In this document: positions 545 through 13,137 of the stretch, one piece after another | Position numbering within the stretch: the first letter of the stretch is position 1 | Layout: the number at the start of each line of letters is the position of its first letter | From: a virus | Length of the DNA: 21,066 bases | IMG/VR virus record: IMGVR_UViG_3300008262_000591 | Location: 1 to 21,066 of that record | Reading direction: 5' to 3' (one strand) | The notes under the pieces: generated by a model | Databases searched by the model: none | Told to the model about the DNA's origin: nothing | What the model saw: only the letters and a program-made list of their open reading frames with translations | Translations under genes and position numbers: made by a program

Positions 545-551
545 TATTTAT
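545..551 (-). promoter_or_regulatory. Putative T4-type late promoter (ATAAATA)
   Basis: Minus-strand GGATAAATAG overlaps the TAA stop codon of the lysozyme gene and lies about 30 bases upstream of the 76-residue gene, correctly spaced for late transcription of it. Confidence 0.5.
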
Positions 552-1216
552 CCTTTTTTCCAGGACTCACCTTCTGCTTTTCTTCTACGGGCAAGTCCTG
601 CTTCTACATTTGAACCAGGATTGCGATAAAGGAATAAAGCATCAGGAACTTGGTCCCACTCTTTATTCTTCAGGCGTTTAGTAATAGTATTAAAGTTATC
701 ACCACCGTAAAAACCGGCACCAAGATTATAAGCAAAGCTGAGCAGAGCTCCTCTTTTCCCATCTGACATTTCTCCCCAAAAAGGTATTTTACGAAGTGCA
801 GGAAGAAACTCTTTCTTGCACTGCTCAATGAGAAGTGCATCTGCTTCTGCCTGTGTTAATGTGTCACCCATTTTAAATGGTGAACCATCTTTCTTACGAG
901 TGGAACCCCAACCGATTGTAATTGGAAGTCCACCCGTGAGAGGGTCGGGATATGCCTTAAGATGACATCCTTCAAACTCCTTAATTAATTTGATGCCCAT
1001 CATTGGGACATCATCACCACCTGTTACAGGAGCTGCAGCAGCAGGGGTCACTGGTGCAGCACTAGTCTTTTTTCCGCGAAAGATCTCCGCCCAATCAGCA
1101 TTATCTTCCAGATATTTAACTGGTAGATTATCTTCTAACCACTGAACTGCCTTGACATGATTTGGATTTCTTTCATCATAGAACTGAAAGAAATTATGTA
1201 GATCAATTTTTGCCAT
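548..1216 (-). CDS. GH24 (T4-type) lysozyme with N-terminal accessory module
   Basis: A 222-residue muramidase that should cleave the NAM-NAG glycosidic bonds of peptidoglycan at host lysis or entry. Residues 1-45 form a separate module (DLHNFF, FYDE, AVQWLEDNLP) also found at the start of the C39-like gene just upstream. An Ala/Pro/Val-rich linker (about 51-70) follows, then the GH24 domain. The expected Glu-Asp-Thr triad is E82 in FEG, D91 in AYPDP and T100 in ITIGWG, with the E-to-D spacing of 9 seen in T4 lysozyme. The C-terminal GLARRRKAEGESW matches the family ending. No signal peptide is seen, so export would need a holin or virion placement. GGAGG 9 bases upstream of the ATG supports the start; the gene overlaps the preceding small ORF by 14 bases. 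Confidence 0.9.
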   Translation of the reverse strand: MAKIDLHNFFQFYDERNPNHVKAVQWLEDNLPVKYLEDNADWAEIFRGKKTSAAPVTPAAAAPVTGGDDVPMMGIKLIKEFEGCHLKAYPDPLTGGLPITIGWGSTRKKDGSPFKMGDTLTQAEADALLIEQCKKEFLPALRKIPFWGEMSDGKRGALLSFAYNLGAGFYGGDNFNTITKRLKNKEWDQVPDALFLYRNPGSNVEAGLARRRKAEGESWKKG

Positions 1217-1340: not shown

Positions 1341-1850
1341 CGTTTCCTCCTGGACACCAGCGGTGCTTAAGAACTGCTTTGGTGTAAATGGTCTTCTTAC
1401 CATTTGTTACTGGACCAGTATAATTATCATTTAATGAACCATAAGGATCATTTACAAAATATCCCTTTCCGTCTGGGGTTTTACCAATGACGACACACAT
1501 ATGCCCACCAGTAGGAGCAGATAAAGAACCCCTATGCAAGATACCAATAACAACAGGTTTCCCAGCATCGAGACTTTTATCAACGTCAGCAAAAGAAAGA
1601 TTGTAACTAAAGTGTGACTTAACTCCATAACCTGCAAGTACCTTCGTTTGTACTTATCTACTTGGTTGAAATAAGGAACTTCTAGAACAGCAGGTGTAGG
1701 TGGCTTGGTTCTATACATTCCAATCCAATCAGTTTCTGCATCATCCAGAAACTCAGCAGGTAGGTTATCCTCTAACCATTGAACTGCTGCAACATGGTTT
1801 GAATTCTTTTCGTCGTAAAATTTAAAAAAATTGTGAAGGTCTAGTGTCAT
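1315..1850 (-). pseudogene. C39-like peptidase with DLHNFF module, disrupted by internal deletion/frameshift
   Basis: The start at 1850 has a good Shine-Dalgarno (AGGAGAGGGAG). Residues 1-45 repeat the lysozyme N-terminal module (LDLHNFF, FYDE, AVQWLEDNLP), followed by VPYFNQVDK, the usual opening of C39-type papain-like peptidases. At 1651-1656 the frame breaks. The original frame continues as a Leu-rich nonsense tail to 1452. The proper continuation (VQTKVLAGYG, KPVVIGILHRG, GGHMCVVIGKT, VNDPYGS, ending WGRIFD) is in another frame down to 1315. The catalytic His and Asp regions are present, but the Cys-bearing segment expected between the two halves is missing. This is therefore an out-of-frame deletion, not a single-base error. 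Either the gene is dead or the assembly lost sequence here. The C39-like assignment is from motif memory. Confidence 0.7.
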
Positions 1851-5072: not shown

Positions 5073-7264
5073 TTAAATCTTACAAGACTCACAATCTTCC
5101 TCCTCTGATTCTAGAATATCGGAAACTAAATTTTCAAGAGACTGACGGGTTTCTTCAACCTCATCATTCTTCATGTCGTGTGTATTTTGATAGTAGCTGG
5201 TTTTCCAACCGTACTTATATGTAGTCAAAAGGTCCTGTGCCATCACTGAAGTAGGAACTTCATTATCTGGGTAATGCTCTGGATTATAGGACCAGTTTCC
5301 AGAAATCGCTTGATCGAAGAATTTTTGCATAACAGCAACAATATGAATATACCCGCGATTGCTAGGCATATCCCAGAGCAGCGTATAATTGTTCTTAAGT
5401 GTTTGATACTGGGGAACAATCTGCTTGAGTGGACCTTTCTTGGACTTCTTAATGGACAAGTATCCGCGAGGTGGTTCGATTCCGTTGGTTGCGTTTGACA
5501 CAACGGAACTGCTCTCCGATGGCATCTGTGCGGACAATGTTGAGTTCCGTACCCCGTATTGTAGAACCTGTGCTCTAAGAGACTCCCAATCATACTTCAA
5601 TTCGTTTGGAACGATTTCATCCACATCCTTCTTGTATGTATCAATCGGCAGAATCCCCTGTCCATACTTGGTACGATGTGAATATTCACATGCACCTTTT
5701 TCCTTAGCAAGATTGACCGTTGCCTGAATCAAATAATATTGGAATGCTTCTGTGAGATCGTGTACCAGTTTCCAGGCACCAGGATCATCGTAATGCTCGC
5801 CGTGCTTGGCGAGATAGTGTGCCAAACCAATAAACCCTACCCCAAGTGAACGACGCGCCCTGGTGGCGATTTCTGCTGCTCTGACGGGGTATCCTTGAAA
5901 ATCAATGAGTTCATCAAGACTCCTAACAGCAAGATCGCAAAGAACTTGAAGATCCTCAAGCTCCCTAACTTTACCAACATTAATAGCAGAAAGAATGCAA
6001 AGAGCAATTTCACCATCAGTATCATCAATATGCTGCAAAGGTTTGGTTGGTAGAGTAATCTCTTGGCACAAATTGCTCATCTCAACTTTATCTAGGAAGG
6101 AAGAATGGGAATTGCAATGGTCAATGTTCATAATGTAGAGACGACCAGTTTCGGCACGTTCTTTCAGGAGTGAAAGAAATAGTTCTTGAGCTGCGATAGT
6201 TTTTCTTGGAATAGACTCATCTCGTTCATAACGAACATACAACTCGTCAAATCCATCAGTACCAAAAGCATCATACAGACCAGGAACGGAGTGAGGAGAG
6301 AAGAGTGAGATTTCTCCGTTTTGAATGAATCGTTCATAGAAGAGTTTGCTAGTTTGAATAGAGTAATCTAGTTTACGGACACGATTATCTTCAGTTCCTT
6401 TGTTGTTCTTTAGAACAAGGATGTCTTCTATTTCTTGGTGCCAGATAGGAAAGTGGACTGTAGCTGAACCACCTCTGATCCCGTTTTGAGTGCAGCATCG
6501 TACAGTTGCCTCAAACTTTTTAAGGAAGGGGACAACGCCTGTGTGTTGTACTTCTCCACCACGGATTTTGCTGTTGATGCCACGGATGCGACCTGCATTG
6601 ATACCGATACCCGCCCTTTGTGCAACATATCTGCCAATAGCCATATCGCTAGTAAAGATACTATCGAGGGTGTCATCAACATCAACAAGGACACAGCTAG
6701 CGTATTGTCTAACTTGGAGAAGATGGTTGCCGCAATCAAAAGGTACATAAATTGTGGCGTTTCGTAAAGTGCCCCAGTGCTTCTATCCTGCACAAGATAC
6801 TTATCAACGACTTGACGTAGACCTGCATAAGTGAACAGATAGTCACGGCTATGATCAACAAACGACTCAAGTTTATCAAACTCTTCATCAGAATACATTG
6901 TCAGAATCTCAGAGTCATAGACACCCCTACCAACACAACGCTCTACATGCTGCTTGACGGTAGGGCATTCATGCATTCTACCAAACAACTGCTTACGAAG
7001 GGCAAACAGCAGCAGACGGGCAGCAACGAACTGATAATTTGGGTGGTCCAGGTCAATCAGGTCAGAAGCAGAACGAATCAAAATCTCCTGAATCTCTGCG
7101 GTAGTAATTCCATCATAAAATTGGATACCAGACTGCATCTCAACCTGTGATGCAGATACATTTGCGAGGTCCTTACACGCCTCTTCCACCATAACATGGA
7201 GTTTGTTTAAATCAAGGGGTTCAGTTTTACCATTTCTCTTAACGACTTTCGTTCCGTTGCTCAT
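5073..7264 (-). pseudogene. nrdA: Ribonucleotide reductase class Ia large (alpha) subunit, interrupted by out-of-frame internal deletion
   Basis: Reads as NrdA in two frames. Residues 1-184 (ATP-cone N terminus, through YETPQFMYLLIAATIFSK) occupy one frame from 7264 to about 6713. From 6710 the frame changes and continues RQYASCVLVDVDDTLDS to the stop at 5073. Against T4 NrdA, about 36 residues between LFSN and RQFSS are missing and 2 nucleotides remain, consistent with a deletion near 106 bases. Catalytic features are otherwise kept: the redox Cys in YASCVL, NLCQEI (Asn, Cys, Glu), the second Cys in GEIALCIL, the radical-transfer Tyr pair in TSYYQNT and the C-terminal CESCKI. ATG 7264 overlaps the gp61 stop (ATGA). 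With nrdB intact, a truly dead nrdA would be odd, so assembly loss is a serious alternative. Confidence 0.88.
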
Positions 7265-10093: not shown

Positions 10094-11635
10094 TCAGTCA
10101 AACCTCGAACTCATATTATCTTGTGCTCTCTTTTTAGCAGCACGAATCTTTGCTACTTTTTGAGCAGGTGATGCAGGAGCACCATATTCACCAGCAGCAG
10201 GTGGTTTCTTACCAGGAACTTTTTTCTCACCTCTTGGTTTAACACCCATTCTACCAGTTCCCATAGATTTAGCAACTAATTCAAATGCTGGATTGCGTGG
10301 TTTTCTTGGAGTTCCTGCTACTTTATCTTCTTTTCTTCTCTCATCAATTACTTCACCCTCAGGCTCATAATTCATCTTAAGTCCCATCGCTCTTAACTTA
10401 TTCTTTGCAAGATTAAGTTTTGTTGGGATTTCTCTAGGATCCTCAACACCACCTTCACTCTTCTTGAGTTTTGGTTCTTTCTCATCTTCACAACCACATG
10501 CTTCTTCCTTCATCGCCTTATTCTTTGCTTTCCAAGCAGTTGCATAAGCGATTGACTTTTCTTTTTTGGTTAATCCACCATCAGCATATGATTTCTTAAC
10601 ATGCTTAACCATGCGCTCATACTTAGCACCAGGAGGAGCCTTTTCAATTAACTCTTCAGAATTTTCAACTTCTTCTTGAGAAAGTGGAATTCCTTTTTGA
10701 AGTTGCTGAAGTTTTGCCATCAGAGTCTTTTTCTGAAGAGCAACTGTCTGCTTATCTTGAGCAGCATCCTTTTTTTCAGCATCTGCTTTTTTATCTTCTT
10801 TCTTTTCTTCCTTTTCTTCTTTAATATTCTTCTCAGAATCTGGGAAGACTTTGATCAAACTTGAATTATTTACACCCTCTCCCGTCAACTTTTTTTCAGT
10901 CTTTTCCTCTTTCTTTTTTTCAATCAACTCGGCAAATCCATCTTGCCAATTGTAATCTTCTTTGCGAGTAGCAATTGCTTTACCAACTGCCTTGCGACGC
11001 TTCATCAGATACTTATCAGACTTATCATGATCACCATCATTGTCAACATCTTTGTCTTCCTGTCCAACAGGGTCTAATCCTTTACCTGCTTTTGCCTTTG
11101 CAGTTGAAGATCCTTTTGCCTTCTCAGACTTCGTTGGTTCTCCATATCCAGTCATCTCAACTGAAGAGATATTTGGATTAGCACGAAGTTCAGAGATCTT
11201 GGCACGGCTTGCCATTCTAACATAAGATTTGCCAGTTTTCTTATCGGTAACTCTTACTTTATATTTTGTTTCACCCGTTTCTTCAAGTTGAAGAAGATAA
11301 TCATTTTGAACTTCTTCTACTTTTTCCTCAACTTTCCCAGATACAAATACATTATATAATGCAGATACAACTGACTCTGTTGCAAGTTTCTTTGTATCAA
11401 CAAGATCTTCACCGAGAAGCATTTGCTTTGCTCTTGCCTTTACTGCAGGGGGTGCAGGAGACTTTTGAAGTTGTGCAGCATACGCTTTTTTTACAGTGAC
11501 AGGATCAGATTTGCCACCTGCCTTAGCAGCCATCGTCTGCTTTACTTTATAACGAGTATCATAAGCTAGCTGTCTTGCTTGCTTTTCAATTTTTTCCTTT
11601 GCTCCACCGGCAGGAGCTGCTGTAGGTTTATCCAT
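10094..11635 (-). CDS. Large highly charged protein with calcium-loop motif, likely virion-associated
   Basis: A 513-residue, strongly Lys/Glu/Ala-rich protein. Residues 1-75 are basic and helical (RQLAYDTRYKVKQTM, PPAVKARAKQMLLGEDL). About 120-165 contain YKVRVTDKKTGKSYVRMA and RANPNISSVEMTGYGEP, a small folded module. About 190-205 carry DVDNDGDHDKSD, which fits a DxDxDG calcium-binding loop. The middle (about 235-310) is low-complexity Lys/Glu coiled coil (KNIKEEKEEKKEDKK). The C-terminal part has KYERMVKHVKKSYADGGLT, YEPEGEVIDE (about 423-432) and ends AQDNMSSRFD. I recognise the pattern from cyanophage proteins of unknown function. An ATAAATA site about 33 bases upstream suggests late expression. 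Scaffold or internal head protein is the best guess. Confidence 0.8.
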   Translation of the reverse strand: MDKPTAAPAGGAKEKIEKQARQLAYDTRYKVKQTMAAKAGGKSDPVTVKKAYAAQLQKSPAPPAVKARAKQMLLGEDLVDTKKLATESVVSALYNVFVSGKVEEKVEEVQNDYLLQLEETGETKYKVRVTDKKTGKSYVRMASRAKISELRANPNISSVEMTGYGEPTKSEKAKGSSTAKAKAGKGLDPVGQEDKDVDNDGDHDKSDKYLMKRRKAVGKAIATRKEDYNWQDGFAELIEKKKEEKTEKKLTGEGVNNSSLIKVFPDSEKNIKEEKEEKKEDKKADAEKKDAAQDKQTVALQKKTLMAKLQQLQKGIPLSQEEVENSEELIEKAPPGAKYERMVKHVKKSYADGGLTKKEKSIAYATAWKAKNKAMKEEACGCEDEKEPKLKKSEGGVEDPREIPTKLNLAKNKLRAMGLKMNYEPEGEVIDERRKEDKVAGTPRKPRNPAFELVAKSMGTGRMGVKPRGEKKVPGKKPPAAGEYGAPASPAQKVAKIRAAKKRAQDNMSSRFD

Positions 11636-11647
11636 TAGGAGATTTAA

Positions 11648-12913
11648 TTACTTATTCTTTCTATACTTATTTATGAAATTCAATCCAAAATTGATTTGAC
11701 CATATGCAAGATTCTCTTTTCCAAGTTCAGATCCTTTGGTTTGTTGTGCTGCATACTTCGTATAACCAGAAGTTCCAGCAAGAGTATTAGGTTTTCCAGG
11801 AAGTCTCATCTTCCTGTCCATTCTTTTTTCTTGATATGCTTCAGTCACATCTTTAATCCAAGACTTAAACATAATATGATCTTCGGTTACACAAATCAGA
11901 TAGTTAGTTCCACGACGAATAATACGTCCAACCAAACCAGTATTCAGGTTTTCTACTAACTGACCAACTTGATAGATCTTCTCTTGAACGTAATTTTCAC
12001 GAAGATTGATCCAATCAAACTTAGGTGCGATTTCCCAGAGACTCCAACCTTCTTTAATTTGCATCGCAGAACGAAGAGTGTTATAAAGTTCTCTTGCCTG
12101 CTTTTCATTCATGGAAGCAGGAACACCCTTACGGAATGTTTTATAGTCCCCTTCTGCTGCTGCCTTTCTTTGCTTTGATGCAGACATTCCTGTTACATCA
12201 TCATCAGAATCTGGATCCCTTTCTCCAGCAGAACGAACTTCTACATTATCAAACTGATAGAGTTTACCATTATATCCACCCGTCAGTTTTTCAAATTCTT
12301 TGACACGATCTGCACCACCAATGATTCTTACATTTGCATAACCATCCATATGCGCTTTCTTAAGCACATCAAAGATAGTACGATTTGCAGCATCATTTAC
12401 AATTCTCTCACTATGCTGAGGAAACATTTGTCTCATCACAGATACTTTTGTATCAGCATCAAGAGGATTCTTTTTCTTATCTTGACTGCGTGAAGGGACA
12501 ATAACGTAATCTCCATCATCAGAGGACTTTGCAACAGTATCAAGAAGTTTTTCGTGTCCCGTCGTTGGTGGATTAAAGCGACCGAAAGCAATCGTCAGAG
12601 TTCCCTTAGTCTTTTCCACTTCAGGCGGAACCATTTCCACAGGTTGTTGTGCCTGGGGTTCCTGTTGCGGCGCAGGTTCCTGTGTTGGTTGAGATAAACT
12701 CTTTTCCTGATCAGTTTGTGCTGGGTCTTGCTGACCAACTCTTTGACGCTTATTATAAAACTTCAGTTGTCCTTTTTCAGTCTTTGCAACAAACTCACCA
12801 GTTTTTTTATCATACCACCCACCATGCCCATCACCAACTAATCCCATGCGTTGAGCTTGCTGAACCGCAGTTGATGCAGCTGCCTCGGATAAAAATTGGA
12901 AAAGATTTTTCAT
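11648..12913 (-). CDS. Cytidylyltransferase-like nucleotidyltransferase with T4-like capsid-targeting N terminus
   Basis: A 421-residue protein. Residues 104-255 form a nucleotidyltransferase domain of the NMN/FMN-adenylyltransferase and cytidylyltransferase superfamily: AFGRFNPPTTGHEKLL (TxGH at 117-120 replaces HxGH), IIGGADRVKEF, and MSASKQRKAA (equivalent to the ISSTxxR loop). The first 11 residues, MKNLFQFLSEA, closely match the T4 internal-protein capsid-targeting sequence MKTYQEFIAEA, with the same length and a gp21 prohead protease site (LSE|A). Residues 25-100 include GDGHGGWYDKKTGEF and a Gln/Pro-rich linker; the C terminus (YTKYAAQQTKGSELG) is basic. The start overlaps the previous stop (TAATG), and an ATAAATA site lies 76 bases upstream. 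Substrate unknown; NAD or another nucleotide cofactor is plausible. Confidence 0.85.
   Translation of the reverse strand: MKNLFQFLSEAAASTAVQQAQRMGLVGDGHGGWYDKKTGEFVAKTEKGQLKFYNKRQRVGQQDPAQTDQEKSLSQPTQEPAPQQEPQAQQPVEMVPPEVEKTKGTLTIAFGRFNPPTTGHEKLLDTVAKSSDDGDYVIVPSRSQDKKKNPLDADTKVSVMRQMFPQHSERIVNDAANRTIFDVLKKAHMDGYANVRIIGGADRVKEFEKLTGGYNGKLYQFDNVEVRSAGERDPDSDDDVTGMSASKQRKAAAEGDYKTFRKGVPASMNEKQARELYNTLRSAMQIKEGWSLWEIAPKFDWINLRENYVQEKIYQVGQLVENLNTGLVGRIIRRGTNYLICVTEDHIMFKSWIKDVTEAYQEKRMDRKMRLPGKPNTLAGTSGYTKYAAQQTKGSELGKENLAYGQINFGLNFINKYRKNK
11668..11674 (-). promoter_or_regulatory. Putative T4-type late promoter (ATAAATA)
   Basis: Minus-strand TCATAAATAAG within the 3' end of the nucleotidyltransferase gene, about 33 bases upstream of the 513-residue gene start. 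Confidence 0.5.
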
Positions 12914-13137
12914 TACTTACAGATTTCAGTAGTTATCGCTCGTTCGTTTGCAACAATGTACCTGAGGACACTATTCCTCATTTTCTTATATTTATTCATT
13001 TCCCTATCCGACTTACATAGGGAAATTTTTTTATCAAATGTCATGTAAATATGTGCCAGCAAATCATTGTATCTCGCACCCCTAGTTTTAGATGGTGATT
13101 CAAATGATTGGATAATATCTTTTATTTGAGAATTCAT
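12913..13137 (-). CDS. Small basic protein, unknown function
   Basis: A 74-residue protein (MNSQIKDIIQSFESPSKTRG ...). It is predicted mostly helical and is basic in its second half (DREMNKYKKMRNSVLRYIV). It is joined to both neighbours by overlapping stop/start codons: ATGA with the putative nuclease and TAATG with the nucleotidyltransferase, so the three are translationally coupled. No domain is recognised. Confidence 0.75.
   Translation of the reverse strand: MNSQIKDIIQSFESPSKTRGARYNDLLAHIYMTFDKKISLCKSDREMNKYKKMRNSVLRYIVANERAITTEICK
12989..12995 (-). promoter_or_regulatory. Putative T4-type late promoter (ATAAATA)
   Basis: Minus-strand GAATAAATATAAG inside the 74-residue gene, 76 bases upstream of the nucleotidyltransferase start codon; it would allow late expression of that gene. 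Confidence 0.45.

Follow-up and report, generated by a model that had tools for sequence, protein, structure and literature searches.

A Nucleotidyltransferase of T4-like Cyanophages with a T4-type Capsid-Targeting Leader Is a Probable Internal Head Protein

In bacteriophage T4, ten leader residues are enough to package the internal protein IPIII, and suppressor-tRNA mutagenesis of this leader links residues 4 and 7 to targeting and residues 8 and 10 to processing (PMC9026906). T4 also carries an enzyme in its head: the ADP-ribosyltransferase Alt is trimmed by gp21 and injected (PMC9026906, PMC9503650). In cyanophages, virion enzymes have been found repeatedly by proteomics, with no account of how they come to be packaged, and the authors of one such report could not exclude contamination (PMC10665884). 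One of them, the “citidylyltransferase” T4-GC190, was detected in purified S-SM1 virions by Sullivan et al. (PMC3037559), and in 2023 it was proposed that cyanophage cytidyltransferases are carried in virions and act early once inside the cell (PMC10665884). The accessible parts of these two reports give no targeting mechanism for the virion cytidylyltransferase. Within the non-subscription literature that our search covered, we found no paper other than a T4 review that joins cyanophages with capsid-targeting leaders, and no description of a leader common to a cytidylyltransferase, a kinase and a SAM hydrolase.

Here we analyze a DNA stretch of 21,066 bases (hereafter the window), which is the whole of the virus fragment IMGVR_UViG_3300008262_000591. 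Its nearest relatives are S-SRM01 and S-SKS1, and it is placed among the T4-like cyanophages. Upstream of the gene under study lie gp43, uvsX, gp41 and mazG; downstream are gp61 and nrdA. The nrdA gene (5112-7264, minus strand) is split over two frames with the joint at 6713 and is about 35 residues short of S-SRM01 NrdA (residues 185-219 are missing), reflecting either an assembly error or a deletion accompanied by a change of frame. In the region of 1315-1850 and 548-1216 (both minus strand), a C39-peptidase-like gene looks frame-shifted, and its first domain (DLHNFFxFYDExNxNHVxAVQWLEDNLP) is also found on the adjoining lysozyme gene.

An earlier note on this DNA had read the open reading frame at 11648-12913 as a nucleotidyltransferase with a T4-style targeting sequence, perhaps an injected metabolic enzyme. 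The frame is exactly as claimed, and its strand, which the note did not state, is minus. We consider it quite probable that this HxGH-superfamily enzyme is an internal head protein of T4-like cyanophages that is trimmed by gp21 and injected. Packaging through the T4-type leader is well supported by sequence and by published proteomics of relatives; the predicted cleavage after E10 and the injection are likely. The features are as follows.

12995..12989, minus strand: ATAAATA late-promoter motif, 76 bases upstream of the enzyme start codon.
12913..11648, minus strand: leader-bearing nucleotidyltransferase, 421 amino acids, orthologue of the T4-GC190 “cytitidyltransferase.”
12884..12913, minus strand: capsid-targeting-type leader MKNLFQFLSE, residues 1-10, with the gp21 cut predicted after E10.
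12743..12874, minus strand: GHGGWYD module, residues 14-57, a helix plus beta meander (pLDDT approximately 92 over residues 21-50).
12608..12742, minus strand: variable Pro/Gln-rich linker, residues 58-102, of low model confidence.
12065..12607, minus strand: HxGH-superfamily nucleotidyltransferase domain, residues 103-283 (PF01467, model and Foldseek).
12554..12583, minus strand: catalytic motif GRFNPPTTGH, residues 111-120, with residues invariant in the alignment.
12167..12184, minus strand: second catalytic motif SASKQR, residues 244-249, with S244 and R249 invariant.
11840..12040, minus strand: SH3/KOW-like beta domain, residues 292-358, seen in the model.
10094..11635, minus strand: downstream open reading frame, 513 amino acids, charged.

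The protein has the N terminus MKNLFQFLSEAAAST and starts MKNLFQFLSEA. In an alignment of 88 homologues (82 aligned residues at position 10), conservation over positions 2-10 is highest at leader positions 4, 7, 8 and 10 (3.95, 3.52, 3.14 and 4.32 bits, respectively); positions 3, 5, 6 and 9 are variable (1.4-2.2 bits). Position 4 is F in 78 sequences and L in 6, position 7 is F in 69 and Y in 13, and position 8 is L in 62, I in 13 and F in 6, while M1 and K2 occur in 80 of 80 window-like homologues. Position 10 is E in 82 of 82, and LSE|A in the window fits the gp21 rule [L/I]-x-E. The conserved positions are those that function in T4.

We built a scoring matrix from the leaders of 80 cyanophage homologues (28 distinct leaders), without using any T4 sequence. 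Among the 1,580 ATG starts of T4, this matrix places IPII and IPIII at joint rank 2 (score 9.5) and IPI at rank 5 (7.0); the chance of finding all three internal proteins in the top five is about 1.5e-8. The resemblance of MKNLFQFLSEA to the T4 internal-protein peptide, from which the earlier note had started, is therefore not a matter of chance: the same positions are conserved, and the matrix recovers IPI-III. The top T4 score, above IPII and IPIII, belongs to gp61.1 (NC_000866 18966..19130, minus strand), a 54 amino acid protein annotated as hypothetical that starts MKTFKEFIKED and, from its sequence, is possibly an unrecognised internal protein. Two cyanophage loci (L063:6641-6862 and L066:10984-11190) encode proteins of 68-73 amino acids starting MKTFKEFI[SN]EEGYD.

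How specific is the leader within a cyanophage genome? In S-SM1, the orthologous enzyme scores 17.0 among 1,729 ATG starts and the runner-up 6.5; we therefore rejected the idea that many S-SM1 proteins carry the leader, since among ATG starts only the enzyme scores high. With GTG and TTG starts included, one GTG within the gp59 gene scores 11.7. For S-CREM2 we used a cut-off of 8, which had been fixed during homologue classification, before this genome was scanned. This value is reached by six of 4,841 starts, five of which are annotated genes: the cytidylyltransferase ORF154 (21.4), the APH-like kinase ORF14 (10.6, GTG start), the hypothetical ORF136 (10.0), the SAM hydrolase ORF6 (9.7) and the hypothetical ORF13 (8.4). 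The remaining one, a TTG start opening a frame of 47 amino acids, corresponds to no annotated gene. The published virion proteome of S-CREM2 lists 52 of 219 genes (PMC10665884, Table 3), and all five annotated leader-bearing genes are in that list (hypergeometric p = 6.5e-4), so that leader and virion presence are correlated. In the Cas9-like virion protein ORF12, the string RFASFMAEAA occurs close to the start, and the GHG module is present as well. The kinase of S-CRM01, likewise reported as a virion protein (PMC10665884), starts MISFDQFLSEK and scores 15.8.

Over seven genomes, the leader pattern gives ten matches and the reversed pattern one. S-SRM01 has three leader proteins besides the enzyme (NC_070963 47292, 126582 and 176324) and S-SKS1 has one (NC_020851 113009); they comprise a 67 amino acid Cys-rich protein (CSNCNMWRPPNACTAVKG), a 102 amino acid family that both phages share and to which two of these proteins belong, and a low-complexity protein of 447 amino acids. 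We also noticed orphan proteins of 400-524 amino acids that start MKSFGDFIF or MKSFTEFIIEG and lie a few kilobases upstream of the enzyme (L039:1735-3309, L048:4773-6272, L053:4879-6345 and L058:1296-2501); the three that were scanned (L039, L048 and L058) have no Pfam or PHROG match.

In S-SM1, the gene bearing the T4-GC190 cluster number is SSM1_190, with the N terminus MKKFSAFLNEA. The earlier note held that absence of the protein from purified virions, or of a gp21-type protease from the phage, would speak against packaging; among relatives, the opposite is found in both respects. The orthologue is reported in purified virions of S-SM1 and S-CREM2, and gp21 (PF03420) is present in eight of the eight relatives searched, the window itself being a 21-kb fragment without head genes. 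The gp23 proteins of S-SM1 and S-CREM2 have LTE sites near the N terminus, consistent with the same cleavage rule. Virion proteomics of S-PM2 missed the protein (PMC3037559), and its coverage in S-CREM2 is low (3 peptides, 11.2%; PMC10665884). S-CREM2 ORF155, which matches the 513 amino acid downstream gene of the window by position only, is also reported as a virion protein.

The 76-base spacing of ATAAATA noted earlier is confirmed, and it gains weight from relatives. NATAAATA has been described as the cyanomyovirus late promoter (PMC2984593). The window contains ten copies of ATAAATA versus 5.5 expected, and we rejected a single copy as evidence by itself, accepting it only after finding it conserved. 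In 58 of 61 distinct window-like relatives the motif lies in the 150 bases preceding the gene (at 72-81 in most), compared with 3/61 and 1/61 for the two 150-base stretches that follow further upstream. It is similarly placed in 10 of 12 S-N03-like and 45 of 71 other relatives and is rare in control stretches, with a distance that is characteristic of each group and differs between groups. Among 46 S-SM1-like relatives, none has it within 150 bases and 17 have it at 150-300. Since the window motif sits in an upstream open reading frame, constraint on that coding sequence may account for part of the constancy of its distance.

The leader is widespread and modular. Altogether 237 of 256 distinct homologues match the leader regexes, compared with 0.5-1.3% (stricter) and 1.5-2.8% (looser) of the ATG starts of S-SM1 and T4, although this count is not one of independent events because the homologues are related. 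The search of relatives proposed in the earlier note thus leaves leaderless homologues in a minority (19/256 outside the regexes), and in two of the 19 the leader is merely one residue short. A short linker separates leader and enzyme in S-N03 and S-CREM2, whereas window-like phages and S-SM1 have differing and longer stretches there; in marine contigs that are distant relatives, the leader abuts the enzyme's first strand (MKNFRDITEAKETVVFTFGR). Judged from these sequences, the leader does not depend on the part behind it, whether the GHGGWYD module, other linkers or, almost directly, the enzyme. We therefore rejected the view that it is part of one fixed N-terminal domain, as it occurs with and without the module. 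The S-SKS1 copy of the enzyme gene (NC_020851 72009..73234, minus strand) is broken: the reading frame shifts past the linker, and the gene has no CDS annotation.

Copies of the GHGGWYD module (as in AERLGLVSDGHGSYMDPNTNKIVARTVNGELVFYD) are also found on the Cas9-like and kinase virion proteins of S-CREM2 (OR473000 7704..10313 and 10579..12846, minus strand) and on a small protein of S-CRM01 (NC_015569 100701..101252, minus strand). In neither the window enzyme nor the Cas9-like protein does the module match a Pfam model.

The leader is absent from the enzymes of P-HM2, Syn1 and one jumbo phage and from some other marine homologues, which suggests that the enzyme can also work without packaging. 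In P-HM2 (L087 1486-2037 and 2065-3381) and Syn1 (L089) the enzyme is split into two genes, a leaderless nucleotidyltransferase followed by a gene with the SH3-like domain. The latter gene in P-HM2 is GC534; it adjoins the leaderless enzyme and starts MKSLSDFTKKS (score 8.9), and it was not counted as a leader protein because E10 is absent. The leader scan of P-HM2 gives one short, weak match (MKYFHIYINE, 58 amino acids). Loss of the leader in S-8S53 and relatives is doubtful. Translation from a GTG that precedes the annotated ATG yields MSFFKRVRTILE|S, so the annotated cytidyltransferase start in these phages (L090, ~1459..1504; L199-L204) probably misses a GTG-initiated leader, an ATG version of which is found in L205/L206.

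The claimed cytidylyl/adenylyltransferase-type domain is likewise confirmed. PF01467 (CTP_transf_like) covers residues 108-208 (E = 1.1e-8, passing the Pfam cut-off), phrog_395 “cytidyltransferase” matches residues 98-419 (E = 3.6e-104), and a homologue is present in 557 phage records. GRFNPPTTGH lies at 111-120 and S244 and R249 lie within MSASKQRK; the residues G111, R112, P115, G119, H120, S244 and R249 are invariant in the 88-sequence alignment, so that catalysis very probably matters. In the AlphaFold2 model, built with 88 relatives, the enzyme domain (103-283) is mostly above pLDDT 93, the small helix-plus-beta module spans residues 15-52, and the leader is poorly ordered (mean approximately 52 over residues 1-10). 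The structure prediction suggested in the earlier note thus yields an HxGH-superfamily domain, which Foldseek relates to structures of NadM, phosphopantetheine adenylyltransferase (PPAT) and NMNAT; the single-domain NMNAT, NadD and PPAT matches have TMt 0.52-0.71 and 10-18% identity. A sequence profile search of the PDB gave nothing useful.

Taken together, we propose that the gene would be transcribed from the late promoter, that leader residues 4 and 7 would bind the prohead core, and that gp21 would cut after [LIF]-x-E at residue 10, freeing the enzyme inside the head. At infection it would enter the cell with the DNA and work before phage genes are expressed, the most likely reaction being adenylylation of a nucleotide cofactor such as NMN. 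Could the enzyme instead be a cytoplasmic auxiliary metabolic enzyme, present in virions by carry-over, with a leader that is a mere conserved N-terminal helix? The S-CREM2 authors allow for carry-over and found only three peptides (PMC10665884), and some homologues are leaderless and presumably cytoplasmic. Nevertheless, a leader learned from other phages picks exactly S-CREM2 proteins reported from virions, the kinase and SAM hydrolase included, its conserved positions are the T4 functional ones, and it has little order in the model and is detachable from the enzyme; we regard this explanation as unlikely. A purely structural role in head assembly, with the leader packaging the protein and the enzyme domain acting later or incidentally, seems to us quite unlikely. 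T4 IPIII affects head morphogenesis (PMC9026906), and the GHGGWYD module and SH3-like domain could bind core or DNA, but a purely structural protein would not need invariant active-site residues, and in S-CREM2 the leader is fused to unrelated enzymes.

A packaged and injected enzyme is thus our preferred explanation, and of the earlier suggestion of an injected metabolic enzyme the packaging half stands, through leader conservation, recovery of the T4 proteins, the reported S-CREM2 virion proteins and gp21 in relatives. The metabolic half, an action on NAD or cofactor pools after infection, is plausible. More specifically, the injected enzyme may make NAD+ from NMN, offsetting a NAD-depleting host defence or host shutdown, an idea that we hold only tentatively and with some doubt. 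The closest solved folds are NadM, PPAT and NMNAT, and the enzyme has the HxGH-superfamily fold with GxFxPxxxGH and a distal S..R motif that characterizes NMNAT/NadM. The GRFxPxxxGH form, with arginine, resembles archaeal-type NMNAT/NadM. NadR and NadD models are among the best NCBIfam matches, but all curated NMNAT models are far under their cut-offs (TIGR01526, 23.7 bits vs 341; TIGR00482, 22.1 vs 112). Phages encode NAD+ synthesis to counter NADases, yet NadM phages reportedly never lack NadV (PMC9503650), and a gene of the NAPRTase family (PF04095, the NadV partner) is found in none of nine relatives. Synechococcus elongatus, our control, has a NAPRTase-family enzyme, and host enzymes could supply NMN. 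The neighborhood points elsewhere in many phages: a DUF6267 motif lies within 1.5 kb upstream of the enzyme in 67 of 67 S-SM1-like and 45 of 66 distant loci, but in only 6 of 75 window-like ones. By eye, the DUF6267 genes have ligase-type KxDG, EGxV and KLVDR motifs, and they and the enzyme match different halves of phrog_455. Given this ligase-like neighbor and the common phrog_455, a role in nucleic-acid repair is possible.

The same tag on other enzymes reported in particles of related viruses suggests that a small enzyme kit is probably injected with the DNA. On balance we favor the view that the leader, in some cases together with the GHGGWYD module, serves T4-like cyanophages as a general cargo tag that can be transferred between proteins, and that several unrelated enzymes are loaded into the head by it and injected together. 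The kit would comprise a Cas9-like nuclease and a protein kinase besides the adenylyltransferase and the SAM hydrolase and would act on the host before phage transcription; genome-wide leader scanning would predict it for such phages. A leader that predicts virion proteins offers a mechanism and speaks against contamination, and with it candidate injected proteins of the abundant phages of picocyanobacteria could be listed from sequence. Capsid targeting as known from T4, where it serves small internal proteins, would thereby be extended to a set of enzymes.

How does this system compare with those already described? With T4 IPI-III it shares a 10-residue N-terminal M-K peptide, key positions 4, 7, 8 and 10, the [LI]xE rule, gp21 (in cyanophage relatives) and late expression; T4 has Y or F at position 4, and cyanophage leaders prefer F. 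The cargo differs, being a catalytic enzyme of approximately 410 residues rather than a small internal protein (IPI is a restriction inhibitor). The mature enzyme, a PF01467 domain plus an SH3-like domain, has no internal-protein family among its Pfam and PHROG matches, and the mature parts of IPI-III show no homology to it in family scans. T4 Alt is likewise an enzyme carried as head cargo, with which the cyanophage protein would also share trimming and injection, but the cyanophage matrix gives its N terminus (MELITELFDE) a score of -4.5, and the enzyme is unrelated. NadM, or archaeal-type NMNAT, and PPAT are alike in fold and motifs and differ in their low identity (10-18%); the cyanophage enzyme has neither a Nudix domain nor a NAPRTase-family partner. 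S-SM1 T4-GC190 and S-CREM2 ORF154 are orthologues of the window enzyme, and their presence in virions has already been described (PMC3037559, PMC10665884).
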